Assembly (NCBI RefSeq): GCF_010731855.1
Contig: NZ_AP022620.1
Span: 1,674,001-1,738,000 of the forward strand
Reading direction: 5' to 3'
Source: Mycolicibacterium anyangense
Lineage (GTDB): Bacteria; Actinomycetota; Actinomycetes; Mycobacteriales; Mycobacteriaceae
Length of the DNA stretch: 64,000 nucleotides
The notes under the pieces were generated by a model. It worked only from the letters and a program-made list of their open reading frames with translations, was not told the origin of the DNA and made no database searches. The first letter of the stretch is position 1, and each line of letters opens with the position of its first letter. The position numbers were made by a program, and so were the translations under genes. This document shows, piece after piece, positions 51,091-64,000 of this stretch.

Positions 51091-52329
51091 GTGATCGAAT
51101 GGTCCGACGTCGACCTTGCCGTGCGTGATGCCGTCCGTGACTTCGTCGACAAGGAGATTCGCCCGCACATCGACGCGCTCGAGAGCGGCGACATGGAGCC
51201 CTACCCCCTCATCCGGAAGTTGTTCAGCACGTTCGGCATCGACGAGATGGCCCGCGAGTCGCTGACCAAACGACTGGACAAACTGCGCGCCGGTGACGAC
51301 TCGAGATCCGGCAGCGGCGGCGGCATGTTCGGCGGCGGACAGGGTGGCATGGGCTTCGTGGTGATCAGCGAACTCTGCCGGGTGTCGACGGGCATGGTGA
51401 CGGGCATGGGCGTCAGCCTCGGGCTGACCGTGCCGACCATCCAGAACCGCGGCACCCTGGCCCAGCAGGAACGCTGGCTGCCCGGCCTGGTGACCTACGA
51501 GAAGGTCGGGGCGTGGGCGATCACCGAGCCGGATTCGGGCTCAGACGCGTTCGGTGGGATGAATTCCTATGTCGTGCGCGACGGCGATGAGTACATCCTC
51601 AACGGGCAGAAGACGTTCATCACCAACGGACCCGACGCCGACGTCGTGGTGGTGTACGCCAAGCTCGACGAGGGCGACCCGTCGGTGGACAAGCGCGACC
51701 GCAAGGTGCTGACCTTCGTGCTGGACAAGGGCATGGAGGGCTTCGTCCAGTCAAAGCCGTTCCGCAAGATGGGCATTCACAGCTCGCGCACCGGTGAGCT
51801 GTTCTTCAACAACGTTCGCCTGGGCCGGGACCGGCTGCTCGGCGAGACCGAGAACAATGCCGCCGGCGACGGCCGCGACAGCGCCCGGTCGAGCTTTTCC
51901 GCCGAACGTATCGGCGTGGCGGCGATGTCGCTCGGGGTGATCGAGGAATGTCTGCGGTTGTGCGTGGACTACGCCAGGACACGGACCTTGTGGGGCAAGG
52001 AGATCGGGCAGTTCCAATTGATCCAGCTCAAGCTGGCCAATATGGAGGTGGCCCGAATGAACGTACGCAACATGCTGTTCCGTGTCATCGAGTGCGGCCA
52101 GACCGGCACACCGATCTCGCTGGCCGAGGCCTCGGCCATGAAGTACTACTGCTCACAGGCCGCCACCGACGTGGCGATGGACGCCATCCAGCTGTTCGGC
52201 GGCAACGGCTATATGACCGAGTACCGGGTCGAGCAACTCGCCCGCGACGCGAAGTCGTTGATGATCTACGCCGGCAGCAACGAGGTGCAGATCACCCATG
52301 TGGCCAAGGGGCTGCTGAGCGCAAACTAG
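51091..52329 (+). CDS. Acyl-CoA dehydrogenase
   Basis: FAD enzyme for alpha-beta oxidation of an acyl-CoA; 412 aa from the GTG at 51091 with GGAG seven bases upstream. It has the substrate/FAD motif WAITEPDSGSDAFGGM, NGQKTFITNGPDAD and QLFGGNGYMTEYRVEQL. The usual catalytic Glu near the C terminus is replaced by Ala394 (IYAGSNE), while Glu272 (FSAERIGVAAM) sits where isovaleryl- and long-chain-type enzymes carry their base. A Gly/Ser-rich stretch (SGSGGGMFGGGQGG) at about residues 73-88 is unusual. Substrate unknown. Confidence 0.92.
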   Translation: MIEWSDVDLAVRDAVRDFVDKEIRPHIDALESGDMEPYPLIRKLFSTFGIDEMARESLTKRLDKLRAGDDSRSGSGGGMFGGGQGGMGFVVISELCRVSTGMVTGMGVSLGLTVPTIQNRGTLAQQERWLPGLVTYEKVGAWAITEPDSGSDAFGGMNSYVVRDGDEYILNGQKTFITNGPDADVVVVYAKLDEGDPSVDKRDRKVLTFVLDKGMEGFVQSKPFRKMGIHSSRTGELFFNNVRLGRDRLLGETENNAAGDGRDSARSSFSAERIGVAAMSLGVIEECLRLCVDYARTRTLWGKEIGQFQLIQLKLANMEVARMNVRNMLFRVIECGQTGTPISLAEASAMKYYCSQAATDVAMDAIQLFGGNGYMTEYRVEQLARDAKSLMIYAGSNEVQITHVAKGLLSAN

Positions 52330-52355
52330 TACCGGCAGACTGGGGGAAGCCGACG

Positions 52356-54956
52356 ATGACCCGGGTGCGCGTCCTGCTGGCGATCGTGGTCGCCGTCCTG
52401 GTGGCCGGCTGCGGTGGATCAGCTACCCGGCAGCAGCAGCAAGAGGCCTCGGCGAACGAGACGCTCGTACACCAGGAGACGGTGAGCGGCGACCTCCCCG
52501 CCGACGCGGCGGGCGTCCGGCGAATCACCTACCTGTCCCGCTCCGGTATCGACGACTCCACCACGCACGTCACCGGGTCGGTCTACCTGCCCCGCACCCC
52601 GGCCCCGCCGGGCGGCTACCACGTGGTCGCCTATGGGCCTGCCACAGCGGGATCGGGGCCGGGATGCGCACGGCCGCAACCGGATACGATCGAGCGACTG
52701 CTCAAGGCCGGTTACGTGGTCACGGTGCCCGACTATCAGGGGTTGGGTGATCCGGCTGCCGGCACCCGGCTCTACCACCCTGCGCTGGACTCCACCACCG
52801 CCGGCTATAACCTGATCGACGCCATGCGGGCCGCCAAGGATCTGGTGCCCGAGACCTCACCGGTCTGGGTGGCCATCGGCGACGTCCAGGGCGGCCAGGC
52901 CGCCTGGGCGCTCAACGAGTTGGCCGACAATTACGGGTTCCAGAGTCTGCGCGGCACCGTCAGCCTGTCGCCGCTCGCCGACCTCTCCGGACTCGCGGAC
53001 GCGGCCGCCGACGGCACGCTGACTCCCGAACAGCAGCGGCTCTACATCTCCTACCTTGCGGCGCTGGCCGCTGAATACCAGGGCGAGTTCCACCTCGACG
53101 ACTACCGGCGCGGAGCGGTCACCCAGCATTGGGATCTGCTCCTGGGCTGCCAGCCGGGCGACGACGCGGCGCGCACCGCGGTCCTTGCCCAGATCACCCC
53201 GGAAGACCTGCGCCCGTCGACCCCGGAGGCGCTGGCCACCCTGCGCAATTATCTGCGCAAGACGTCACTGCCACAGGGGCCGGCCCAGCAGCCCATGCTG
53301 GTGAGCTACGGCGAGCAGGACCCGCTGACCCCCGCGGCGTGGACCGAGCGGGCCGTGTCCCGAGCCTGCGGGCTGGGTGATCGGATCACCGTGCGCCCGC
53401 AGCCCTCCCCCGCGCTGGATCCCGAGGTCCTGGACTGGATCGCCGCCCGGCTGGCCGAACGCCAGGTGCCCGATGACTGCGCCGCATTCCTTGCCGCCCA
53501 TCCACTTCCGCCTGCGGAGACGGTCACCGTCCCGCAGCCGAGCGCCCCGGCAGCCGCTCCGCCGACCGGCGCACCGAGCGATGTCGGGCCCGCCGCAGCG
53601 TCGGGCGGAGTATCACTGATCGACGGGTGGCTGCCGGTGGCGCTGCAGGCCCTGACGGCCGCCGCGCTGATCGCCGCGACCGGATGGCGGTCCCGGCGAT
53701 GGCGGCTGCGCTGGCTTCCCGTCGGTGCCGCCGTGGGTGTGGCCCTGATCGGGGCGGTGTGGTGGTTCGTCGACAGCCAGGGCCTGGGATCGGTGTACCC
53801 GTGGGGTATGTGGGTGTGGATCGGGCTGACCGGGCTGGCGGCCGCGGTGCTGGTGCTCGGCTGGCCGGGATCTCCCTGGTGGCGCCGAGCCCTCGCCGTG
53901 GCGTCGGTTCCACTGTGCGCGATCTCGGCAGCCGCGGTGCTCAACGCGTCGCTGGGCTATCTGCCGACGGTCCAGACCGCCTGGCAGCGCGCCACTGGTC
54001 AGCTTCCGCCGCAATGGATCGACCAGACGAAACTCGTTGCCATGCAGCGTCAGGGTGTGCGGCCGACCCGCGGGACGGTGGTGTCCATCAGCACGCCCGA
54101 CGACGTCTCCGGGTTCGCCCACCGCAACGAGTTGGTGTATCTGCCGCCGGCCTGGTTCAGGTCGAACCCGCCGCCCGAGCTGCCGGTGGTGATGATGCTC
54201 GGTGCCGAGCTCAGCTCCCCTTCCGACTGGCTGCAATCAGGGCACGCGCTGAGCATTCTGGACGACTTCGCTCTGCAGCACCGCGGAGTCACCCCGGTAG
54301 TGGTGTTCCCCGACACCAGCGGGTCGTTCACCAACGACACCGAATGCGTGAACGGACCGCGCGGCAACGCCGCCGACCACCTGATCAAAGAGTTTGTGCC
54401 CTTTGTCATCTCGAACTTCGGTGTCAGTGCGCAGCCAGCGAACTGGGGGGTGGCCGGCTGGTCCTCGGGCGGCACCTGTGCACTGACGCTGTCGGTCAGC
54501 CATCCCGACATGTTCAGTACGTTCGTCGACCTCGACGGCCAGCTCGGACCGAACGCCGGCAAGCGGCAGCAGACTATCGCCCGGCTGTTCGGCGGTGACG
54601 AGCAGGCTTGGGCGGCTTTCGATCCCAGGACGGTGGTCCGGGGTCGCGGCTACTACTACGACATGGCGGCCTGGATCGGGGTGTCAGACGATGTGCCGAC
54701 CGTGCACCGCCCGGCCGGCAGCGGATCGCGCGATATCGACCATCCGGATTGGGACAACTACTCCGAGGACCACCGCAAGACCGCGAACCAGCTGTGCGAG
54801 CTTCTCAGTGCGCACGGTATCGAGTGTTCGGTCGTGGGCTATCGCGGCGGCCACGATTTTCCCTCCGCCGCCAACGGATTCAGGGATGCTCTGCCGTGGC
54901 TGGCCGGCCGGATCGGTACACCGGGGGTGCCGTCGACACCGTTGCCGGGAGCCTAG
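52356..54956 (+). CDS. Lipoprotein with a lipase-like domain, four membrane helices and an esterase domain
   Basis: An 866-aa protein starting at ATG 52356 behind GGGGGAAG. The signal peptide ends in a lipobox (LVAGC), so it should be a lipoprotein. Residues about 45-385 resemble the secretory lipase (LIP) family, but the elbow reads IGDVQGGQ with Val177 in place of Ser, and the expected late His is absent (PSPALDPEVLDWI). About residues 420-540 hold four hydrophobic helices. From about 570 an esterase D/antigen-85-like domain follows with an intact GWSSGG elbow (Ser703) and a late His in YRGGHDFPSA. It may be a fusion of a dead lipase with an active envelope esterase or mycolyltransferase-like enzyme. 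It is 26 nt after the dehydrogenase gene. Confidence 0.85.
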   Translation: MTRVRVLLAIVVAVLVAGCGGSATRQQQQEASANETLVHQETVSGDLPADAAGVRRITYLSRSGIDDSTTHVTGSVYLPRTPAPPGGYHVVAYGPATAGSGPGCARPQPDTIERLLKAGYVVTVPDYQGLGDPAAGTRLYHPALDSTTAGYNLIDAMRAAKDLVPETSPVWVAIGDVQGGQAAWALNELADNYGFQSLRGTVSLSPLADLSGLADAAADGTLTPEQQRLYISYLAALAAEYQGEFHLDDYRRGAVTQHWDLLLGCQPGDDAARTAVLAQITPEDLRPSTPEALATLRNYLRKTSLPQGPAQQPMLVSYGEQDPLTPAAWTERAVSRACGLGDRITVRPQPSPALDPEVLDWIAARLAERQVPDDCAAFLAAHPLPPAETVTVPQPSAPAAAPPTGAPSDVGPAAASGGVSLIDGWLPVALQALTAAALIAATGWRSRRWRLRWLPVGAAVGVALIGAVWWFVDSQGLGSVYPWGMWVWIGLTGLAAAVLVLGWPGSPWWRRALAVASVPLCAISAAAVLNASLGYLPTVQTAWQRATGQLPPQWIDQTKLVAMQRQGVRPTRGTVVSISTPDDVSGFAHRNELVYLPPAWFRSNPPPELPVVMMLGAELSSPSDWLQSGHALSILDDFALQHRGVTPVVVFPDTSGSFTNDTECVNGPRGNAADHLIKEFVPFVISNFGVSAQPANWGVAGWSSGGTCALTLSVSHPDMFSTFVDLDGQLGPNAGKRQQTIARLFGGDEQAWAAFDPRTVVRGRGYYYDMAAWIGVSDDVPTVHRPAGSGSRDIDHPDWDNYSEDHRKTANQLCELLSAHGIECSVVGYRGGHDFPSAANGFRDALPWLAGRIGTPGVPSTPLPGA

Positions 54957-55951
54957 CCGGATCCGGCGCCGGCGGTGATCGCCCGGGTCAGCGCCCGGAC
55001 GATCGCCTGGCGGCCCAGGGGAACCTTGAAGGCGTTCTGCGCCAGCGGCTGCGCGTCCGCCATTGCCAGCCGCGCCGCCGCCTCGAAGGTGGCGGCGTCC
55101 GGCGGGCGTCCGATCATCGACTCCTCGGCGGCCGGCACCCGCCAGGGGGTGGCGGCGACTCCGCCCAGCGCGATGGCGGCCGAGGCGATCACTCCGTCGG
55201 CCAGGTCGATGCCCACCGCTGCCGACACCAACGCGAAGGCGTAGCTGTGCCGGTCACGCAGTTTCAGATACCACGACCGGTCGGCATAGGGCGACGCGGG
55301 CAACTCCACGGAGAGAATCAATTCTGCTGGTAGCAAGCAGTTCTCGAGGTCCGGGGTGTCGCCGGGCAGGGTGTAGAACTCGGCGAATGGTATCGCGCGC
55401 GGACCGCCGGGACCTTCGACGTGCACGACCGCGTCGAGGATCGCCAGTGCGACCGCCATGTCCGAGGGGTTGATCGCCACGCAGCTCTGGCTGGCCCCGA
55501 AAATGGCGTGCTCCCGGTGAAATCCCGCGAGTGCGGCGCACCCCGATCCCGGTCGTCGCTTGTTGCACTGCCCGAATTCGGGCTGCATGAAGTAGGGACA
55601 CCGGGTGCGCTGCAGTAGGTTGCCGCCAACGGTGGCCATATTGCGCAACTGGGTGGTGGCGCCGCTGAGGATCGACTGCGAGAGCACCGGATACTGTGAA
55701 CGGATCAGCGGATGATTGGCCAGTGCACTGTTGGTGACGCCCGAGCCGATGCGCACCCCGCCGGACGCGGTAGCCGCCACCGACGTGAGTCCGAGACGGC
55801 GGATGTCGATCAGCCGATCGGGGTGCAGTACATCGTTTTTCATCAGATCGACCAGGTTCGTCCCCCCGGCCAGGTACACACCACCGGACTCGCTGACTTC
55901 GGCGATGGCGTCAGCCACCGATGCGGCCCGGCGAAATGCGAACGGCTTCAC
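54953..55951 (-). CDS. Molybdenum hydroxylase FAD subunit, PaoB-like with extra 4Fe-4S motif
   Basis: Medium subunit of a xanthine dehydrogenase-family enzyme; 332 aa from GTG 55951. FAD-binding motifs are VYLAGGTNLVDLMK and ATVGGNLLQRT. An insertion after the second motif carries four cysteines (RCPYF, QCNKR, GSGCAAL, SQSCVAI), the pattern of the additional [4Fe-4S] cluster in E. coli PaoB and in 4-hydroxybenzoyl-CoA reductase. It is the last gene of the catabolic operon; its stop overlaps that of the convergent lipoprotein gene by two bases. Confidence 0.9.
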   Translation of the reverse strand: MKPFAFRRAASVADAIAEVSESGGVYLAGGTNLVDLMKNDVLHPDRLIDIRRLGLTSVAATASGGVRIGSGVTNSALANHPLIRSQYPVLSQSILSGATTQLRNMATVGGNLLQRTRCPYFMQPEFGQCNKRRPGSGCAALAGFHREHAIFGASQSCVAINPSDMAVALAILDAVVHVEGPGGPRAIPFAEFYTLPGDTPDLENCLLPAELILSVELPASPYADRSWYLKLRDRHSYAFALVSAAVGIDLADGVIASAAIALGGVAATPWRVPAAEESMIGRPPDAATFEAAARLAMADAQPLAQNAFKVPLGRQAIVRALTRAITAGAGSG

Positions 55952-56508
55952 GATGAGGACTCCGGCGTCGAGGCCTCGTGCGCCGCCGCGATCGCGTCGG
56001 CGATATGCGAGTACGCACCGCACCGGCAGATGTTGCCCGCCATCCGCTCCCGGATTTCGGGCATGGTCAGCGCAGCGCTGCCCTGCAGGGCAGCGCTGCG
56101 GTCACCCTCGAACGAGGCAGCGCTGAGGTCGCCGCGGGCATGCTCGTGCAGCATCGCGGTGGCCGAACAGATCTGCCCGGGCGTGCAGTATCCGCACTGG
56201 AACGCGTCGTGGTCGAGAAATGCGGCTTGCACCACGCTCAGGTCGTCACCGTCGGCAAGACCTTCGACGGTGGTGACCGAGGATCCGTCGGCCGAAACCG
56301 CCAACGCCAGGCAGCTGAGGATCCGTTCGCCGTCCATCACCACCGTGCAGGCACCACACAAGCCATGGTCGCAGCCCTTCTTGGTGCCGGTCAGCCCGAG
56401 CCGCTCACGCAGCAGATCGAGCACCGTGGTGCGGACGTCAACCGTCAATCGGTGCTCAATGCCGTTGATGGTCAGCGAAATGCCTTGCTGCGGTCTAACT
56501 TCCGTCAC
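55948..56508 (-). CDS. Molybdenum hydroxylase 2Fe-2S subunit
   Basis: Small subunit passing electrons from the Mo site to FAD; 186 aa. The plant-type cluster ligands are in KKGCDHGLCGACTVV with a later SC, and the second cluster in QCGYCTPG and GNICRCGAY, so all eight cysteines are present. No Tat signal is seen, unlike PaoA, so the enzyme is probably cytoplasmic. A 30-bp perfect palindrome lies within the region between cysteine pairs. GTG start at 56508 overlaps the Mo subunit gene; the stop overlaps the FAD subunit gene. Confidence 0.93.
   Translation of the reverse strand: MTEVRPQQGISLTINGIEHRLTVDVRTTVLDLLRERLGLTGTKKGCDHGLCGACTVVMDGERILSCLALAVSADGSSVTTVEGLADGDDLSVVQAAFLDHDAFQCGYCTPGQICSATAMLHEHARGDLSAASFEGDRSAALQGSAALTMPEIRERMAGNICRCGAYSHIADAIAAAHEASTPESSS
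56071..56100. repeat. 30-bp perfect palindrome inside the 2Fe-2S subunit gene
   Basis: Each half is 15 bases (CGCAGCGCTGCCCTG and its complement) with no spacer, centred on a PstI-like CTGCAG. It encodes Ala/Leu/Gln/Ser-rich sequence (SAALQGSAAL) between the two cysteine pairs of the second cluster. Confidence 0.85.
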
Positions 56509-58760
56509 AGTTCCACCATCAGATTCTCGATCGTCATCGGCAGATCACGGATCCGGCGACCGGTGGCATGGAAGACGGCATTGGCAACCGCGGCCGCCAC
56601 CCCGCAGGCACCGATCTCGCCGATGCCGCGCACCCCGATCGGGTCCAGCGCGAAGTCGGGTTCGTCGACGAAGGTGATGTCGAAGTCCGGCCGGTCGGCA
56701 TGGGTGGGCACGTAGTACTCACCGATCAGTTGCGCGGTACGCGGGTCGTAGGCCACCTGTTCGAGCAGAGCCATGCCCACGCCGAACGTGATGCCACCCA
56801 TCACCTGATTACGCGCCAGGACCGGGTTGAGCACCCGTCCGCAGTCCATCACCGCTACCCAGCGAGTCACCGTGGCGCGGCCGATCTGCTCGTCGACCTC
56901 GACTTCGCAAAAATGGGCGCCGAATGACTGCGACACCGTGCCGGCCTGATCGCCACCATCGACCGACACCGTGAAACTCAGCTGATCGAGATACCCACGG
57001 CCCCCCTGTGCGATCAGATCGGTGACGGCCATCCGATGCCTACCGGCCACCACCTCGCCTGTCACTACGGTGATCTCGTCGCGCGGGTGGCCGCAGAACG
57101 GCGTCGAGGGATCGGCGCTGACGAGGCCGACCAGCCGGGCCGTCCACTGCGATGCCGCCGCGAACACCGCCGAGCCGACCGTCGCGGTGGTCTGCGAGGC
57201 GCCACTGTACGGGGCATCGGGGAACAGCGAGTCTCCGGAGCCGAACTCCACCTGCGCCAGCGGTAGTCCGGTGGCGTGTGCGGCGACCTGTGACATGACG
57301 GTCCGCACTCCGGTACCGATCTCGTGGGTGGCCGATGCGAACCGCACCACTCCGTCGGGCGACGTGGTGACGCGGCACGATGCCGGCATTCGCCGACCAG
57401 GGTAGGTCGCCGTCGCCATGCCCCAGCCGATCTGGAGCCCGTCCGCCGTCAGCGACCGGGGCTGCTTGGGCCGCTTGTCCCAGCCGAACCGTTCCCGGCC
57501 GATCGCGTAGCAGTCCAGCAGGTGGTTTCCCGACCAGTCCTTTCCACTGGCCTGGTCGGTCGTCGCGTGGTTGCGGATCCGCAGCTCCAGCGGATCGATG
57601 CCCAGTTCCCAGGCCAGCTCGTCCATCGCCGACTCCAGGGCGAACAATCCCGGCGCCTCGCCGGGGCCACGCATGAAACATGGTGTGGGTGCGTTGATCC
57701 GGGCCACCCGGTGCGAGACGACCAGCCGCGGCGACCGGTAGAGGAACCGGCTGGACAACCCGGCCGGCTCGCAGAAGTGCGCCACTGTCGACGTCTCGGT
57801 GAGGGTGTGGTGTTCGATGCTCAGCAACTCTCCGTTGCCCTCGGCGACCAGGCTCAGGTCCTGATAGGTGCGGGGCCGGTGCCCGGTGGAGGAGAACATC
57901 TGATTGCGGGTCAGCACAAGCTTCACCGGTCGGCCGACCTCCCTGGAGGCTACCGCACACAGCACCACGTGCATCCAGAGAAAGCTCTTGGAGCCGAAGG
58001 CGCCGCCAACCAGTGGAGCGACCACCCGGACGTGTGACTCCGGCAGCCCCAGGTAGGCCGCCAGCGCGGTCCGCTCGCCGGTGATCCAGCGGGTGGTGTC
58101 GTGCACGGTGAGCAAGTCGCCGGCCCACTCCGCGATGCAGGCCGACAGCTCGATCGGGTAGTGCGCGTTGAGCGGTGTCGCGTAGCGCCGGGCGATCCGG
58201 ACCGCTCCGGCCGGCTCGTCGTCGGGGCCGCGACGGTCCTGCAGTTTCTCCTCGACCAGTTTGACGAAGTGATCAGGATGGTAACTGCCGTAACGGATTT
58301 CGCCGTGCTTCTCGTCCGGCGGCTGGGCAGCGCCGAGCACGTCCTCGGCGCCTCCGGTGGCCGGCTGGACGGCATAGCGCAGATCGAACAGCGATGCCGC
58401 GTAGGTGGCCTCTTCTGGCGTCTGGGCAACCACCACCGCCATGTGCTGACCGACATGCTGGACGGTGAGATCCGACAGCGGGGGCCGCCGCTCCAGCGGG
58501 AGATCGAACGTCAGGTCACGCGGAAGGCGTTGCAACACCGGGCAATTCAACGGCGTCAGCACATACAGCACCCCGGGTGCCGCTGCAGCCCTGGCGGCAC
58601 TGTCCCGCACTGACTCCGCAGTTACCACGCCGTGGGCCACGTCGGACTGGACCACCACGGCATACGTCAGGCCCTCGACCGCGGTGTCGGCCGTGTAGCG
58701 GGCCCGGCCGGTGACCTTGTCCGCACCCTCGACGCGGGTGATGGGCAGTCCGATCGTCAT
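56505..58760 (-). CDS. Molybdenum hydroxylase large subunit (xanthine dehydrogenase family)
   Basis: Substrate- and molybdopterin-binding subunit; 751 aa from ATG 58760, which overlaps the stop of the flavin reductase gene. It begins ITRVEGADKVTGRARYTAD. Cofactor-contacting motifs are LVGGAFGSKSF, ACFMRGPGEAPG-like (TPCFMRGPGEAPG) and the C-terminal RGIGEIGACGVAAAVANA, whose Glu is the catalytic base. Three separate subunits match PaoABC-type aldehyde oxidoreductases and several heteroaromatic hydroxylases. No dedicated maturation factor of the XdhC/PaoD type is in the window. Confidence 0.92.
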   Translation of the reverse strand: MTIGLPITRVEGADKVTGRARYTADTAVEGLTYAVVVQSDVAHGVVTAESVRDSAARAAAAPGVLYVLTPLNCPVLQRLPRDLTFDLPLERRPPLSDLTVQHVGQHMAVVVAQTPEEATYAASLFDLRYAVQPATGGAEDVLGAAQPPDEKHGEIRYGSYHPDHFVKLVEEKLQDRRGPDDEPAGAVRIARRYATPLNAHYPIELSACIAEWAGDLLTVHDTTRWITGERTALAAYLGLPESHVRVVAPLVGGAFGSKSFLWMHVVLCAVASREVGRPVKLVLTRNQMFSSTGHRPRTYQDLSLVAEGNGELLSIEHHTLTETSTVAHFCEPAGLSSRFLYRSPRLVVSHRVARINAPTPCFMRGPGEAPGLFALESAMDELAWELGIDPLELRIRNHATTDQASGKDWSGNHLLDCYAIGRERFGWDKRPKQPRSLTADGLQIGWGMATATYPGRRMPASCRVTTSPDGVVRFASATHEIGTGVRTVMSQVAAHATGLPLAQVEFGSGDSLFPDAPYSGASQTTATVGSAVFAAASQWTARLVGLVSADPSTPFCGHPRDEITVVTGEVVAGRHRMAVTDLIAQGGRGYLDQLSFTVSVDGGDQAGTVSQSFGAHFCEVEVDEQIGRATVTRWVAVMDCGRVLNPVLARNQVMGGITFGVGMALLEQVAYDPRTAQLIGEYYVPTHADRPDFDITFVDEPDFALDPIGVRGIGEIGACGVAAAVANAVFHATGRRIRDLPMTIENLMVEL

Positions 58761-59845
58761 GCGAATGCCCTGGTGTACTGCGGCGGGAACGGCAGGGGCA
58801 CGCCCAGTGCGGCGGCCGCGCGGCGCACCCACATCGGATCCCGCAGCAACGCGCGGGCCAGGAAGACGGCGTCGGCCTGCCCGGCGTCGACGATGGCCGC
58901 CGCCTGCTCGGGCTCGGTGATGAGTCCGACTGCGGTGACCGGGACGTCGGCCTTGCGGCGCAGCGCCTGCGCAAACGGCACCTGGTAATCCGGTCCGACC
59001 GGGATCGTCGCGTCCGGCACCAGTCCCCCGGTCGAGACGTCGACCAGATCGACCCCGAGATCCTTGAGCCGGCCGGCGAGCACGATCGACTCCTCGAGCG
59101 TCCAGCCGGGCCGCGGATCGTCGGTGTCCCTGGCCAGCCAGTCGGTGGCCGACACCCGGAAGAACAGCGGTAGCTCCGCGGGCCACTGGTCACGCACGGC
59201 GGTCACCACCTCGAGCGCGAACCGCATGCGGTTCTCCAGGCTGCCGCCGTACCGGTCGGTGCGGACATTGGATGCCGGCGACAGGAACTGGTGGATCAGA
59301 TAGCCGTGCGCGCCGTGCAGTTCGAGCACCCGGAATCCGGCGTGTGCCGCCCGACGAGCTGCAGCGGCGAACGAGTCGACGATCGAACTGATCTGTGCGG
59401 TATCGAGTTCCAGTGGCGCGGGCAACCGCCCGAAGGGTACCGGACTGGGGCCGACGGTCGGCCAGCGCTGCGGTTCCCGGGTGTCGTCGGGCCACGGGCG
59501 CCCGGTCGAGGCCTTGCGTCCGCCATGGACCAGCTGGATGCCGGGCACCGTGCCCTGCGCGGACAGGAATTCGGTGATCCGGCGGAAACGCTGCGCCTGC
59601 ACGTCGTTCCACAAACCGAGGTCGTAGATACTGCTTCGGCCAGCCGGGTCGACGGCGGTGGCTTCGGTCATGACCAGTGCGGCACCACCGACGGCGCGGG
59701 CGCCGAGGTGCTGGACATGCCAGTCGGTCGGTGACCCCATCTCCGGCCCGTCTGCAACCGCCGAGAACTGCATCATGGGCGACATCCAAAGCCGATGCGC
59801 GAACGTCACCTCGCGCAGCGTGATCGGCGTGAAGAGGGCGGTCAT
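58757..59845 (-). CDS. NADH:flavin oxidoreductase, old yellow enzyme family
   Basis: FMN-dependent ene-reductase; 362 aa from ATG 59845 (MTALFTPITLREVTF). The YqjM-like features are QLVHGGRKAS, LHGAHGYLIHQFLSPASN and RTDRYGGSLENRMRF, then TAVGLITEPEQAAAI for FMN phosphate. Such enzymes reduce activated double bonds and, in catabolic operons, often act on ring-derived enones. Coupled by 4-nt overlaps to the amidohydrolase gene before it and the Mo subunit gene after it. Confidence 0.92.
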   Translation of the reverse strand: MTALFTPITLREVTFAHRLWMSPMMQFSAVADGPEMGSPTDWHVQHLGARAVGGAALVMTEATAVDPAGRSSIYDLGLWNDVQAQRFRRITEFLSAQGTVPGIQLVHGGRKASTGRPWPDDTREPQRWPTVGPSPVPFGRLPAPLELDTAQISSIVDSFAAAARRAAHAGFRVLELHGAHGYLIHQFLSPASNVRTDRYGGSLENRMRFALEVVTAVRDQWPAELPLFFRVSATDWLARDTDDPRPGWTLEESIVLAGRLKDLGVDLVDVSTGGLVPDATIPVGPDYQVPFAQALRRKADVPVTAVGLITEPEQAAAIVDAGQADAVFLARALLRDPMWVRRAAAALGVPLPFPPQYTRAFA

Positions 59846-60849
59846 GATGCCGCCGAGGCAGCGGGGCGGCGGGCCCGCATGGCGAGGTAGGTCTGCGCGG
59901 CGCGGTGCAGCGCGTCGGCGCCCGGTCCATGCTCGACGGCGAAGCGGGCCGGGTCGGACTCGGCCATGTCGAAGGGATAGTCGCTGCCGCAGAGGATCTT
60001 GTCGGCACCGGCGAGCTGGGTCAGCAGGGCCAACTGGGCCTGGCCGTGTGTCACGGTGTCGAAGTAGACATCGCGGAACGCCTCGTCTGGTCGTCGGGGC
60101 GCGCGGGAGCTGACGTCGGCGCGTGCCGACCAGGCATGGCTCCAACGGCCCACCAGGCCGGGCGCACAGCCCCCGCCATGCACGAAACAGATCCGCAGGC
60201 CGGGCAATTCGTCGACGAGACCGCTCAACAGCAGGGTGGCGATGGCGGTCGCCGATTCCACCGGGTTGCCGATCAGGTTGGCCAGGTAGTAGTTCGACCA
60301 CTCGGGCCGCGCCAGCTGCATGGGATGCACCAGCACCGCAAGACCGAGCCGGGCGGCCTCGGCCAGGACATGCCGCAACGGGTCGCTGTCCAGCGAGCCA
60401 TTGCCCACCAGGGGCGGAATGGCGACGCCGCCGATCCCCTCGATCGCGGCCATCGTTTCGAGCTGACGGGTGGCCTCGCCGGCGTCGCCGAGGGTCACCA
60501 TGCCAAGCCCGACAAGCCGGCCGCCGGAGTTGGCGACGACCTCGCCCAGCGCGGCGTTGAACGCCTCGGCGTAGTGGGCCGCCGCCGGGCCGGGAACGAG
60601 CGGGAACGCGAAAGGCGGCGCCGAGAGCACCCGCACGCCGATCCCGGCGCGGTCCATGTCGAGAACCGCGGCGGCGGGATCGCTCATGGCGTCCGTGGCG
60701 ATCGACAGCGGGAGCTCACCCAAATAGAGCTCGCCGCCCCGGTCGTGCATCGGACCGTAGGGGGCACCGGGCGGCAGATCGAAGAGCTCCCGCGGCAGCC
60801 AGTGCGCGTGGACATCGACCACGCCGTCGGCGATCGGGGTGGTGATCAC
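59842..60849 (-). CDS. Amidohydrolase-superfamily enzyme, ACMSD-like
   Basis: A 335-aa TIM-barrel metal enzyme. Ligands fall in VVDVHAHWLP (HxH), LVHPMQ, FVHGGG and LCGSDYPFDMAESDP (Asp), the arrangement of aminocarboxymuconate-semialdehyde decarboxylase and related non-oxidative aromatic decarboxylases. A decarboxylation or a C-C hydrolysis in the pathway is therefore likely. The GTG at 60849 overlaps the cupin stop. Exact substrate cannot be inferred. Confidence 0.88.
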   Translation of the reverse strand: MITTPIADGVVDVHAHWLPRELFDLPPGAPYGPMHDRGGELYLGELPLSIATDAMSDPAAAVLDMDRAGIGVRVLSAPPFAFPLVPGPAAAHYAEAFNAALGEVVANSGGRLVGLGMVTLGDAGEATRQLETMAAIEGIGGVAIPPLVGNGSLDSDPLRHVLAEAARLGLAVLVHPMQLARPEWSNYYLANLIGNPVESATAIATLLLSGLVDELPGLRICFVHGGGCAPGLVGRWSHAWSARADVSSRAPRRPDEAFRDVYFDTVTHGQAQLALLTQLAGADKILCGSDYPFDMAESDPARFAVEHGPGADALHRAAQTYLAMRARRPAASAAS

Positions 60850-61310
60850 CGCGCCCCCGGGTGGCCGGCGGCAACGGCGTCCACATCCAGGGGCGCGTTG
60901 GCACTGTCGAGATGTTCCACGGTGGTGAACACCAGATCATCGTCGCCGATGTTCTCGATGTCGTGCAAAAGGAACTCGCCGGGACCGAAGTGGAAGTGCC
61001 GGGTCTCGCCCGCCTGATAGGACACCTCACGGACCGTGCCGTCATGGGTGTGCTGCCGGCTTCGACCCGCGTTGACGGCGGTCCAGAAGTAGTCCAGCAC
61101 ATGGCGGTGCGCATGCCAGCGCTCGCCGGGAGCCAGCCGGATCTCCCAGACCCGAACCCGGTCGTTCTGACTGAGCAGCCGGGACCCGACGTGACCGTCG
61201 TGGGCATGCTCGTCGAATTCCAGCCGCAGCCACTGGGGCCAGGTGTCGAAGTCGGTGGCGACCAGTTCGCCCGCCAATGGCAGATCTGCCAGAAAATTGT
61301 TGTCAGCCAT
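60846..61310 (-). CDS. Cupin-domain protein
   Basis: A 154-aa single-domain cupin. Motif 1 is APGERWHAHRHVLDYFWTA, with three His (H-x-H-x2 region) and motif 2 AGETRHFHFGPGEFLLHDIEN. The His-rich motifs would bind a divalent metal, so it could be a small dioxygenase, an isomerase or a stability factor. Its position between the monooxygenase (20 nt away) and the decarboxylase-like gene argues for a step in the pathway. Confidence 0.85.
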   Translation of the reverse strand: MADNNFLADLPLAGELVATDFDTWPQWLRLEFDEHAHDGHVGSRLLSQNDRVRVWEIRLAPGERWHAHRHVLDYFWTAVNAGRSRQHTHDGTVREVSYQAGETRHFHFGPGEFLLHDIENIGDDDLVFTTVEHLDSANAPLDVDAVAAGHPGAR

Positions 61311-61330
61311 CGTGTTTCCTTTCGGTGTGG

Positions 61331-62521
61331 TTAGCGGCCGGGTCCGTAGAGTCCGAACCGAAGGTCCGGGTCCCCGGGAACCCAGGTGTTGTGGAACTGC
61401 GAGCGCTCCCCCATGTCCACGACGCGCCGCAGCAGCGAGTCACTGAGCTGCAGTTGCGCGGGTTCCCATGTGGTCAGTGCCGAGGGGATGTCGCCCGCGG
61501 CGTCATCCAGGGCGGCCGCCAGGGCCCAGGCGTCCGCTGCGGCTTTGGCGGTACCGGCGGCCGCATGCGGCCGCGACGCGCACGCCGCGTCACCGATGAG
61601 TGCGACACGGCCCTGTGCCATCCGCCGCGACCGGACGTCGGAGAGCACCTGAAGATACGGGGTCTCGGTGGCGACGACCACCTCGGCCACCGCTGGAGCG
61701 AACAACTCGGTTGCCGCAGAGCGCATCTCGCAGACGTAGCGGTCCTGAACCTGCCCGGGATGTACGGATACCGCGCCGTGGAATCCGCGCTTGTCGATCA
61801 GCATCTCGGTGAGGTCGGGGCCCGCCTCGACGTTGCGGTACCAGACGTAGTTCATCAGTCGGTGCCCGACGTCGAGTCCGTCTTCACCAGGGATGGGGTA
61901 CATGGTGATGTGGGAGTTCGGCACCACGCCGTAGGTGATCGCGTCGTCGAGGGTCTCGCGGGCGTACGCGCTCAGGGTCGACCACGGTACGGTGCCGCGC
62001 CAGCCGATGTAACCCGAGTACTTCAGTGTGGCTTCGGGGTCGAACCGTTCGCGGGCCGTCGAGGTGATTCCGTCGGCGAACACCACCAGATCGGCGGTGG
62101 CGGTGGCGCCGCTGACGAATCTGACGGTCGCCCGCTCGCCATCCTGGCCGAATCCGCTGGCATATTCACCGTAGTGGTAGTGCTCGGTGCCGAAATCGGC
62201 GAGCAATGCCCGATAGAACGTTCCCCAGGAGGTGTAGGTCCACGCCGCCCGCTCCCGGTGGGCGATGCCGCCGTCGCGTTGCAGGTACTGGATGTAGGAG
62301 GTGGCGGTGTGCAGATCGGCCAGGTTCTGGGTGCTGCGTTCAGTGAACCACCGCACGGTGTCGGGTTGCAGCACGATCCCGCTGCCGCGGCCATCCAGTG
62401 CGGTGGGGGTGCGCTCGTAGACGTCGACGGTGAAGCCCAAGTCCCGCAAGAGCAGTGCGGTGGTGAGACCTCCGATGGAGCCGCCGACGACAACGGCTGA
62501 GGCATTCGAGTAGCCGGTCAT
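61331..62521 (-). CDS. FAD-dependent monooxygenase, dihydroxypyridine hydroxylase-like
   Basis: A 396-aa class A flavoprotein hydroxylase from ATG 62521. The Rossmann motif is VVVGGSIGGLTTALLL, with VFADGITSTAR (the DG motif) and GDAACASRPHAAAGTAKAAA at the FAD ribityl site. That last motif and the C terminus (GDPDLRFGLYGPGR) resemble, to my memory, 2,6-dihydroxypyridine 3-monooxygenase of nicotine-degrading Arthrobacter more than salicylate hydroxylases. It would hydroxylate an electron-rich ring using NAD(P)H and O2. Stop of the MFS gene overlaps its start. Confidence 0.88.
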   Translation of the reverse strand: MTGYSNASAVVVGGSIGGLTTALLLRDLGFTVDVYERTPTALDGRGSGIVLQPDTVRWFTERSTQNLADLHTATSYIQYLQRDGGIAHRERAAWTYTSWGTFYRALLADFGTEHYHYGEYASGFGQDGERATVRFVSGATATADLVVFADGITSTARERFDPEATLKYSGYIGWRGTVPWSTLSAYARETLDDAITYGVVPNSHITMYPIPGEDGLDVGHRLMNYVWYRNVEAGPDLTEMLIDKRGFHGAVSVHPGQVQDRYVCEMRSAATELFAPAVAEVVVATETPYLQVLSDVRSRRMAQGRVALIGDAACASRPHAAAGTAKAAADAWALAAALDDAAGDIPSALTTWEPAQLQLSDSLLRRVVDMGERSQFHNTWVPGDPDLRFGLYGPGR

Positions 62522-63888
62522 GGCTGGCTCTCCTCCACCCGGATGGTCAAGGCGTCGGCAGGCAAGGGCGCGCCCCGGGTCTCGGTCGCGAAGGCCAGCC
62601 CGACCACGGCGATCAGGCCGAGGACGGCGACGCCGGCCGTAGCCTGACCGAGGTTGCCGTCGAACCAGGTGATCGCGATGACACCGGCCGCCAGCGGGCC
62701 CAGCGCGGTGACATAGCGGCCGACGCTGTTGCAGACGGCCAGTGCGGTCGCCCGTACGCTCGGCGGGAACAACTCGGGCGCATAGATGAAGGTGCCGGAC
62801 AGCGCGCCGAAGAGTCCGAACCCGAGAATCGGCATGGCGAGCAGGAATTCGTCGTAGCTCCGCTCGAACGGGAACGTCCAGGCGATCGCGGCCGCCGACA
62901 CGGTGAAGCTCATCAGGAAGGTCGTTCTGCGCCCGATCAGATCCGCGATGAACCCCCAGGACGCGTACCCGATGATTCCGCCGGCGTTGAACAGCATGGC
63001 GGCCAGGGCAACCCGATGGTCGGCCACCGGGCCGGGCTGACCGCTCGCCGCGGTGATCTGCCTGATGATCTGCGGGTACCAGGTCGAGACGCTCCAGAAG
63101 GTGATAAGGGCACCGGTGGCCAGTGCTGTGCAGACCAGCATCGGGCGCAGCAGCGGCGGACTGAACAGCCGCCACAGCACGAAGCGGTCCTCGGATGTCA
63201 TGGTCCCCTGGGCTTTACGCTGACGACGAGAATGGAGGTGCGCGGTGATCTCCGGGGGCTCTGGCACGAACCGCCGGATGAACCACACCACCAGGGCGGG
63301 CAGCCCGGCCAGCATCATCATCACGCGCCAGCCCTGACCGCCCAGGATCGCGTAGGCACCGGCGGCGGCGAAGAAGCCCGCGGCGTAGCCGGCCATCATC
63401 ACCCCACCGGCCCGCGCCCGGAACCGGTTGCGCCACGTCTCGGCGATCAGCGCCGCACCCACCGGCGCTTCGACACCCGAGCCCAAGCCGGCGATGAAGC
63501 GCAATATCCCCAGCTGCCACCAGTTGTCGACGAATGCCGCGGCCGCGCTGAACACGGCGTAGGTCAGAATGCCCACCGACAACACCCTGGTACGACCGAA
63601 GTAGTCGGCCAGAATGCCGAACAGGATTCCGCCGGTGGCCCATCCAGCCAGGAACAGCGCCATGGTCAGGCCGCCGTACAGTCCGATAGCGGCCCGGTCG
63701 GCCGCAATACCACTGTTGGGCAGCAACTCGGTCATGGCAGGCCCGAGGACCAGAACGTAGAGACTGCCCGCAAAGCCGTCCAAGCCCCACCCCAGCGTGG
63801 TGCCGGCCAGCACCAGCCACTGGGTCCGGCTGATCTCACCTCGCCAGCCCGCCCGGGTTCCAGACTGCGCGGTTGTGCCGATCGTCAT
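62518..63888 (-). CDS. MFS transporter, aromatic-acid/metabolite uptake type
   Basis: A 456-aa protein with 12 predicted membrane helices and a central basic loop (HSRRQRKAQGT). The loop 2-3 motif is ADYFGRTRVLSVG and the RFIAGLGSGVEAP segment in helix 4 is typical of the AAHS/SHS symporters that import aromatic acids. The ATG at 63888 has GAGGGAAA upstream. It is the first complete gene of the operon in the window, so the pathway substrate is probably imported by it. Confidence 0.9.
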   Translation of the reverse strand: MTIGTTAQSGTRAGWRGEISRTQWLVLAGTTLGWGLDGFAGSLYVLVLGPAMTELLPNSGIAADRAAIGLYGGLTMALFLAGWATGGILFGILADYFGRTRVLSVGILTYAVFSAAAAFVDNWWQLGILRFIAGLGSGVEAPVGAALIAETWRNRFRARAGGVMMAGYAAGFFAAAGAYAILGGQGWRVMMMLAGLPALVVWFIRRFVPEPPEITAHLHSRRQRKAQGTMTSEDRFVLWRLFSPPLLRPMLVCTALATGALITFWSVSTWYPQIIRQITAASGQPGPVADHRVALAAMLFNAGGIIGYASWGFIADLIGRRTTFLMSFTVSAAAIAWTFPFERSYDEFLLAMPILGFGLFGALSGTFIYAPELFPPSVRATALAVCNSVGRYVTALGPLAAGVIAITWFDGNLGQATAGVAVLGLIAVVGLAFATETRGAPLPADALTIRVEESQP

Positions 63889-63928
63889 CGAATTTCCCTC
63901 GCTACGTTGGTGATTGGTGCTCTCACAG

Positions 63929-64000
63929 TCAGTTCAGCCGGCTCGGCGGCTCCGCGCCGTACCAGTCGACCGGTTCGGCGGCGGTCCTGACCACGACGGT
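63929..64000 (-). CDS. Partial C-terminal end of an upstream gene
   Basis: The frame ending at the TGA at 63929-63931 is open to the window edge for 23 codons and reads TVVVRTAAEPVDWYGAEPPS, then RLN. It lies 40 nt upstream of the MFS gene on the same strand and so is likely the preceding cistron. Too short to identify. Confidence 0.4.
   Translation of the reverse strand, partial: TVVVRTAAEPVDWYGAEPPSRLN

Follow-up and report, generated by a model that had tools for sequence, protein, structure and literature searches.

Gene content of the locus

The window analysed here is a 64,000-nt stretch of DNA of Mycolicibacterium anyangense (NZ_AP022620.1, positions 1674001-1738000 of a single-contig 5.70-Mb genome), and its last part is occupied by a candidate catabolic operon. 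Eight genes, all complete as read from the open reading frames (ORFs), lie on the minus strand at 54953-63888. Six of their seven junctions are 4-nt overlaps, the exception being a 20-nt gap between the genes of a class A flavin hydroxylase (FMO) and a small cupin. The original prediction, made from the letters of the window, had described these eight genes and overlaps, and had expected the operon to continue past 64000, where a regulator might lie. All of this was borne out, the continuation and the regulator by a fetched locus that extends past the window end (L002; window coordinate = L002 coordinate + 52999). An aldehyde dehydrogenase (ALDH) gene was found 40 nt from the gene of a major facilitator superfamily (MFS) transporter, and a divergent regulator gene of GAF/PucR type stands 62 nt beyond the listed start of ALDH. 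The full order is ALDH, MFS, FMO, cupin, a decarboxylase resembling 2-amino-3-carboxymuconate-6-semialdehyde decarboxylase (ACMSD), an old yellow enzyme (OYE), and the large (MoL), 2Fe-2S (FeS) and FAD (FADsub) subunits of a molybdenum (Mo) hydroxylase, which with the regulator makes ten genes (Table 1). Pfam backs the family assignment of seven of the eight complete window genes.

Comparison of related loci showed that the recurring unit is FMO, cupin and ACMSD-like decarboxylase, usually with ALDH, a transporter and OYE. Dozens of loci share the gene order, so that the operon is more than a chance assembly. The Mo enzyme forms a module that is linked to this unit yet can be parted from it, because the complete trio was found in 16 of the 66 loci that hold both FMO and cupin and stands alone at the window's site in five relatives. 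The operon is thus not built round the Mo hydroxylase, as had been proposed; the strong co-occurrence of this enzyme with FMO inside the genus nevertheless makes it a partner of the core.

Table 1. Genes of the operon and its regulator. Positions are window coordinates, continued past 64000 as window equivalents.
Gene product	Position	Strand	Basis
Aldehyde dehydrogenase (ALDH), 3' end in window	63929..64000 (whole gene 63929-65425, L002:10930-12426)	-	PF00171; PDB 4go3
MFS transporter	62518..63888	-	Aromatic acid/H+ symport family as best NCBIfam model (score under the cut-off)
Class A flavin hydroxylase (FMO), PRK07236 subfamily	61331..62521	-	NCBIfam; PF22607; PDB 2vou
Small metal-binding-type cupin, putative ring-opening oxygenase	60846..61310	-	PDB 9u8n; His motifs
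Amidohydrolase-2 family decarboxylase, ACMSD-like	59842..60849	-	PF04909; nearest PDB ACMSD; alignment
Old yellow enzyme (OYE, ene reductase), YqjM/XenA/chromate-reductase class	58757..59845	-	Pfam, NCBIfam, PDB
Mo-binding large subunit (MoL), PaoC-like	56505..58760	-	Pfam, NCBIfam, PDB, PaoC alignment
2Fe-2S subunit (FeS), PaoA-like	55948..56508	-	Pfam, NCBIfam, PaoA alignment
FAD subunit (FADsub), PaoB-like	54953..55951	-	Pfam, NCBIfam, PaoB alignment
Regulator, 635 aa, GAF, GGDEF-like and PucR-type helix-turn-helix domains	65488-67395	divergent to operon	Domain search

Distribution and gene order in actinobacteria

The decarboxylase served as bait for most of the loci; its alignment search gave 314 relatives in named genomes, of which 80 were kept. 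Genes were counted by tblastn (FMO at ≥55% identity, cupin at ≥65%) in 92 loci of about 20 kb, because a simple gene caller overlooked genes, for example in L013 and L055. The count includes L098, which is no duplicate, and L099, and leaves out L130, whose genome is already represented by L019. L095-L097, which repeat L034, L052 and L055, are left out too, and L100-L107 and L115-L129 stand outside the count (short pieces, L114, or stretches retrieved through the Mo subunit).

FMO and cupin were found together in 66 of the 92 loci, seven of which are shorter than 16 kb and possibly cut. The regulator was present in 61 of these 66, MFS in 53, ALDH in 52 and OYE in 42; the decarboxylase was present in 60, a figure biased upward since it was mostly the bait. 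The whole set of seven genes (regulator, ALDH, MFS, FMO, cupin, decarboxylase, OYE) occurred in 34 loci, and in 46 when OYE was not demanded. The order ALDH-MFS-FMO-cupin-ACMSD recurs in loci of Mycobacterium, Rhodococcus, Nocardia, Streptomyces, Amycolatopsis, Arthrobacter and Herbiconiux. OYE follows in most Mycobacterium, Rhodococcus and Nocardia loci and in Arthrobacter, and is absent from the Streptomyces and Herbiconiux loci. Forty stretches of the viral_contigs collection matched a pattern and none was a relative, and viral carriage was rejected.

Three arrangements were distinguished. Arrangement A is the order of the window; in L020 and L022 the decarboxylase and OYE are found on the far side of the regulator. 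In arrangement B (L071, L074, L076, L078, L079, L080, L082, L087) an NMT1-type ATP-binding cassette (ABC) transporter stands with decarboxylase, FMO and cupin; the transporter families were tested on L071, and the transporter was called incompletely in L078 and L082. In arrangement C, seen in Streptomyces and elsewhere, the decarboxylase has a distantly related Mo trio (26-30% identity) beside it; the trio of L066, the one tested, resembled glyceraldehyde dehydrogenase/CoxL. An importer of the NitT/TauT-type ABC class with an NMT1/THI5-like binding protein takes the place of MFS or accompanies it in L071, L074, L076, L079, L080, L087 and L130. Several loci lacking OYE have, near the core, an MFS gene and the gene of a glyoxalase-like protein (about 230 aa; L044 11266-11976, L041 12514-13191, L058 1301-2041; PF13468 in L044, the one tested), and in some loci these two occupy the OYE position. 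ALDH at about 5855 of L030 and the Mo large subunit at about 12749 of L018 each gave two adjoining partial matches, as a frameshift or a misassembly would produce.

Three groups of genomes, eight for FMO, eight for ALDH and 15 for the Mo subunit, were picked by hand, not at random, and probed outside the fetched loci. The FMO group consisted of the genomes of L065, L075, L077, L081, L084, L089 and L035, all seven decarboxylase loci without FMO, and of L074 as a check. FMO was present in all eight at 61-78% identity. In six of them ALDH-MFS-FMO-cupin-OYE stood together at another locus with a Mo trio (66-70%) across the regulator, and in the L035 genome the surroundings of FMO (L114) held only FMO (61%) and a regulator-like gene (37%). 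Among the eight genomes whose loci lacked ALDH, an ALDH was found elsewhere at 77-81% in three, at 54-55% in three and at 43% in one, and none was found in one.

Relation of the molybdenum enzyme to the core

Among 248 genomes of the genus, 47 held FMO (E ≤ 1e-150), 62 held the Mo subunit (E ≤ 1e-200) and 43 held both. The Mo subunit was thus present in 43 of 47 FMO-positive against 19 of 201 FMO-negative genomes (Fisher p 1.6e-28, kinship ignored). The difference was retained in genomes of at least 5.4 Mb (42/46 against 17/127) and within size bins, with 1/1 against 2/74 below 5.4 Mb, 10/10 against 1/55 at 5.4-6.0 Mb, 11/13 against 12/47 at 6.0-6.5 Mb and 21/23 against 4/25 from 6.5 Mb upward. 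The two genes lay within 20 kb of each other in 19 of the 43 genomes. In the 15 hand-picked genomes with a core locus that, as fetched, lacked the trio, nine had a Mo subunit of 70-72% identity (one of them also in a 76% piece), four had only paralogues of 36-41%, and two had nothing at E ≤ 1e-60. For L019, one of the nine, the Mo gene was found just outside the fetched stretch, behind ABC genes (L130); judging by coordinates, L024, L042 and L062 probably resemble it in this.

Eight of the 19 genomes positive for MoL and negative for FMO were inspected. In five (G112, G343, G448, G029, G391) the Mo trio, at 72-82% identity, occupies the window's site between trmH and a pair of acyl-CoA dehydrogenase and MPAB-family genes, and none of the genes from regulator to OYE is present there. 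In L123 a GMC-type oxidoreductase gene lies in between at this site. In the other three genomes the trio lies elsewhere (L124-L126). Four named relatives (L015-L018) carry the full set at the window's site. In a tree built from four flanking genes, species with the Mo trio alone were interleaved with full-set species (local supports 0.69-1.00). In the FMO tree the five full-set copies grouped together (0.914), with an internal order that differs from that of the flanking-gene tree. The history is most simply read as one arrival, after which the core was lost repeatedly while the trio stayed; independent gains, which parsimony alone counts as equal, may also have occurred.

Beyond the regulator lie trmH, rplT and infC, named by reading the ORFs without a family search. 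The regulator gene and trmH converge with an 18-nt overlap (L002 12489-15149, window equivalent 65488-68148), and the operon abuts infC-rplT-trmH. At the other end a plus-strand ORF resembling an esterase/lipase (51948-54956, PF00756) meets the FADsub gene tail to tail, with a 4-nt overlap at the stop; its real start probably lies further in.

Sequence features of the enzymes

FMO scored 475.8 bits against the NCBIfam subfamily PRK07236, whose cut-off is 333, and matched the Pfam domain PF22607 at 103 bits. Its best PDB match was 2,6-dihydroxypyridine hydroxylase (2vou, 257 bits, residues 10-391). A second FMO of dihydroxypyridine-hydroxylase type, 31-34% identical to the first, was seen in L108-L112, L125, L014, L057, L027 and L032, near a Mo trio, a regulator or ACMSD-like genes; its PDB match, tested on L125 only, was again best to 2vou. 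ALDH matched best a gamma-hydroxymuconic semialdehyde dehydrogenase in the PDB (4go3, 408 bits).

The cupin gave no Pfam match at E ≤ 0.001 and was assigned through a PDB sequence match to an unnamed cupin, 9u8n (E 1.8e-11). The metal ligands of a cupin were found in it: the motif HAHRH (His66/68/70) and His116 are invariant in 33 aligned sequences. None of the known ring-cleaving cupin families was matched specifically, the only scores being those of 9u8n, oxalate decarboxylase and, weakly, Cupin_2, and the 3-hydroxyanthranilate dioxygenase model gave no match. The family has 2552 relatives at E ≤ 0.001, and all of the 120 listed are without a Pfam domain.

ACMSD was the solved family nearest to the decarboxylase in the PDB search (149 bits). 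His14, His16, His175, His224 and Asp290, which we take to be the metal ligands and catalytic His of ACMSD, are invariant in 13 homologues and align with the human enzyme, and ACMSD Arg243 is retained. In contrast, Ser49 and Thr52 stand in the columns of human ACMSD Arg47 and Arg51, presumably its substrate arginines by numbering and role, and none of the 13 homologues has Arg in either column. Some homologues are labelled by their sources 2-hydroxy-3-carboxy-6-oxo-7-methylocta-2,4-dienoate decarboxylase, presumably the p-cumate enzyme.

The Mo trio has the same three subunits as Escherichia coli PaoABC and is 38, 49 and 55% identical to PaoC, PaoB and PaoA over aligned residues. All nine PaoA Cys and all four PaoB Cys, the latter presumably holding an extra Fe-S cluster, are kept, and MoL Glu715 aligns with PaoC Glu692, which we take to be the catalytic Glu. 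However, PaoC Arg440, presumably also of functional importance, is replaced by Tyr453, and the NCBIfam equivalog cut-offs were not reached (PaoC 508 against 1180, PaoA 229 against 322). FeS begins past the region that holds the twin-arginine stretch of PaoA, leaving no twin-arginine translocation (Tat) extension, and the enzyme is apparently cytoplasmic. PDB matches of MoL were 5y6q at 462 bits, PaoC at 366, quinoline oxidoreductase at 155 and nicotinate dehydrogenase at 72. An XdhC-family gene, likely encoding a maturation factor, was found elsewhere in the genome. The two likenesses named in the original prediction, of the flavin enzyme to dihydroxypyridine hydroxylase and of the Mo enzyme to PaoABC, were both upheld.

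Discussion

From the gene content, order, conservation and co-occurrence described above we infer a set of reactions, their order and a substrate. The divergent regulator would detect the substrate or an intermediate, and the MFS carrier would bring an acid into the cell. FMO may put a hydroxyl on the ring, as its likeness to dihydroxypyridine hydroxylase suggests, and the ACMSD-like metal enzyme would strip the carboxyl group non-oxidatively. The small cupin might then cleave the hydroxylated ring using O2, and ALDH and the ene reductase would convert the ring-opened product to a central metabolite. As an upstream module, the PaoABC-like enzyme may oxidise a precursor, either by hydroxylating the ring beside N or by turning an aldehyde into the acid. 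Chances appear about even that the operon is inducible, serves to break down a (hetero)aromatic carboxylic acid and has a decarboxylase that acts on the intact ring. Decarboxylation of an intact hydroxylated ring is suggested by a parallel with the upper picolinate pathway and by the fact that a set of Mo enzyme, amidohydrolase-2 decarboxylase and dihydroxypyridine-hydroxylase-type FMO occurs in at least three versions (window; L125; L014 and L057). In L125 the Mo trio is found with the second FMO and a decarboxylase of gamma-resorcylate/2,3-dihydroxybenzoate type, the type having been tested on its relative in L124. L124 itself holds the gamma-resorcylate-type decarboxylase and a Mo trio with no FMO between. 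In the Streptomyces loci L014 and L057 the second type of FMO and an ACMSD-like enzyme are accompanied by a distant Mo trio (26-27%).

Several observations weigh against this proposal, in addition to the bait bias in the decarboxylase count. The ring-opening role suggested for the cupin draws solely on its fold family and gene position. No amidase, deformylase or other nitrogen-releasing gene is present among the operon genes, and PF02073, which we take to be the family of the 2,5-dihydroxypyridine dioxygenase NicX (NicX/PicD type), had no match in the genome, while four of 14 control genomes matched. By its PDB scores MoL is closer to aldehyde oxidases than to hydroxylases of N-heterocycles. 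ALDH is absent from 14 and OYE from 24 of the 66 loci, so that their steps are not universal. The unit is also uncommon, with the decarboxylase in 6 of 201 family genomes (E ≤ 1e-40), and FMO in 3 of 121 family genomes (E ≤ 1e-120) and in the 47 of 248 genomes of the genus given above. The original prediction had named pyridine-, quinoline- and hydroxybenzoate-type compounds as putative substrates. A pyridine-type acid is our tentative first choice of substrate, held at a little short of even and slightly favoured over a dihydroxybenzoate of resorcylate type, the second choice, which is possible with less confidence. The pyridine reading is weakened by the lack of a nitrogen-releasing gene in the operon and of a PF02073 protein in the genome, and these, together with the aldehyde oxidases nearest to MoL, determined how the two substrates were weighted. 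In its most specific form the operon would be an undescribed actinobacterial route for a pyridine carboxylic acid (of isonicotinate, nicotinate or picolinate type). Ring hydroxylation would then fall to the Mo trio and FMO, the ACMSD-like enzyme would decarboxylate the ring, a small cupin of a new kind would open it in place of NicX/PicD, and the ene reductase and ALDH would finish; this we consider improbable.

The degradation of gamma-resorcylate proceeds through a decarboxylase, a hydroxylase, a ring-opening enzyme and then a reductase of the opened product. A benzene-ring route of this kind, which hydroxybenzaldehydes would enter in two ways, through oxidation by the Mo enzyme or by ALDH, is a possible though somewhat doubtful alternative. 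It agrees with the aromatic-acid symporter family as best MFS model (below cut-off), with the likeness of the trio to the aldehyde oxidase PaoABC, with the gamma-resorcylate-type decarboxylase beside the Mo trio in L124 and L125, and with an operon devoid of nitrogen-handling genes, whereas the best PDB match of both FMO types to dihydroxypyridine hydroxylase and the loss of PaoC Arg440 in MoL argue against it. By meta-cleavage, FMO would form a catechol-type acid, the cupin would cut it beside the carboxyl, the ACMSD-like enzyme would decarboxylate the semialdehyde, ALDH would yield a muconate and OYE would reduce it. The substrate of ACMSD is a ring-opened acid, and the nearest solved family of the decarboxylase, the best PDB match of the neighbouring ALDH and the p-cumate-type names on some homologues, if rightly assigned, all point in this direction. 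Nevertheless, both substrate arginines of ACMSD are replaced, the decarboxylase beside the Mo trio in L124 and L125 is of intact-ring type, and no tautomerase, hydratase or aldolase is found among the operon genes, which makes meta-cleavage rather unlikely.

The Mo trio might also be an independent aldehyde-detoxifying enzyme that only shares a transcript with the catabolic genes. The five relatives with the trio alone between trmH and the acyl-CoA dehydrogenase gene, the 19 of 62 Mo-subunit genomes without FMO, and a Mo subunit of at most 41% identity in five tested genomes outside the genus are consistent with such independence. We consider it unlikely all the same, given a co-occurrence that holds at equal genome size and an adjacency that takes varied forms: after OYE, after the cupin (L078), across the regulator (L108-L113) and behind the ABC transporter (L130).

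Among known systems, a true ACMSD/kynurenine pathway was rejected on the loss of both substrate arginines, the cupin also being without a 3-hydroxyanthranilate dioxygenase match; quinoline or isoquinoline was rejected as first choice, MoL being far from quinoline oxidoreductase. The picolinate pathway (pic), in which PicA is presumably a Mo enzyme, bears a likeness to the operon. In this proven route of Alcaligenes and Bordetella (PMC10142695) a dehydrogenase comes first, followed by a flavin monooxygenase and then by a decarboxylase of the amidohydrolase family. The window operon likewise has a Mo hydroxylase, FMO and a decarboxylase of the amidohydrolase family, matching by family only. The pic pathway then continues through PicD/E/F/G (dioxygenase, deformylase, amidohydrolase, isomerase), whereas the window operon has cupin, ALDH and OYE in their place. 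The nicotinate hxn genes of Aspergillus nidulans also include a Mo hydroxylase, monooxygenases, the OYE-type alkene reductase HxnT and transporters; they differ in being fungal, HxnV has a phenol 2-monooxygenase domain, and neither an ACMSD-like decarboxylase nor a cupin was seen in the accessible part of the source (PMC9304392). Three further candidates were rejected on accessible parts of their sources: the kpi-type pathway for 4-hydroxypyridine, whose ring-opener KpiC belongs to another family, Amidohydrolase_1 (PMC7356986); the riboflavin/lumichrome route, which requires a thiamine pyrophosphate decarboxylase and a Rieske dioxygenase, both absent from the operon (PMC12746152); and the skatole ska cluster, a different set with a ring-hydroxylating oxygenase and a LuxR-type regulator (PMC13101512).

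The original prediction had known of no described pathway with exactly this gene set and had suggested a search for the cluster in Mycolicibacterium and Rhodococcus. The search found the ALDH-to-ACMSD order in both Mycobacterium and Rhodococcus, and the combination was not found described in the literature searched, most subscription journals being beyond its reach. Every enzyme family of the operon is already known; what appears new is their combination. That such a unit, six to seven genes long, recurs in genera ranging from Mycobacterium to Streptomyces and Arthrobacter suggests an environmental compound that still lacks an assigned breakdown route. No assigned reaction was found for the cupin family, and a single assay could give a large group of proteins its name. 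The locus has a modular history, with the Mo trio standing without the core at one site, and this offers a way to part the role of the Mo enzyme from that of the rest. If the pyridine-acid route is true, the operon would provide genes for pyridine-acid degraders among mycobacteria, rhodococci and streptomycetes, for which the literature search found none.

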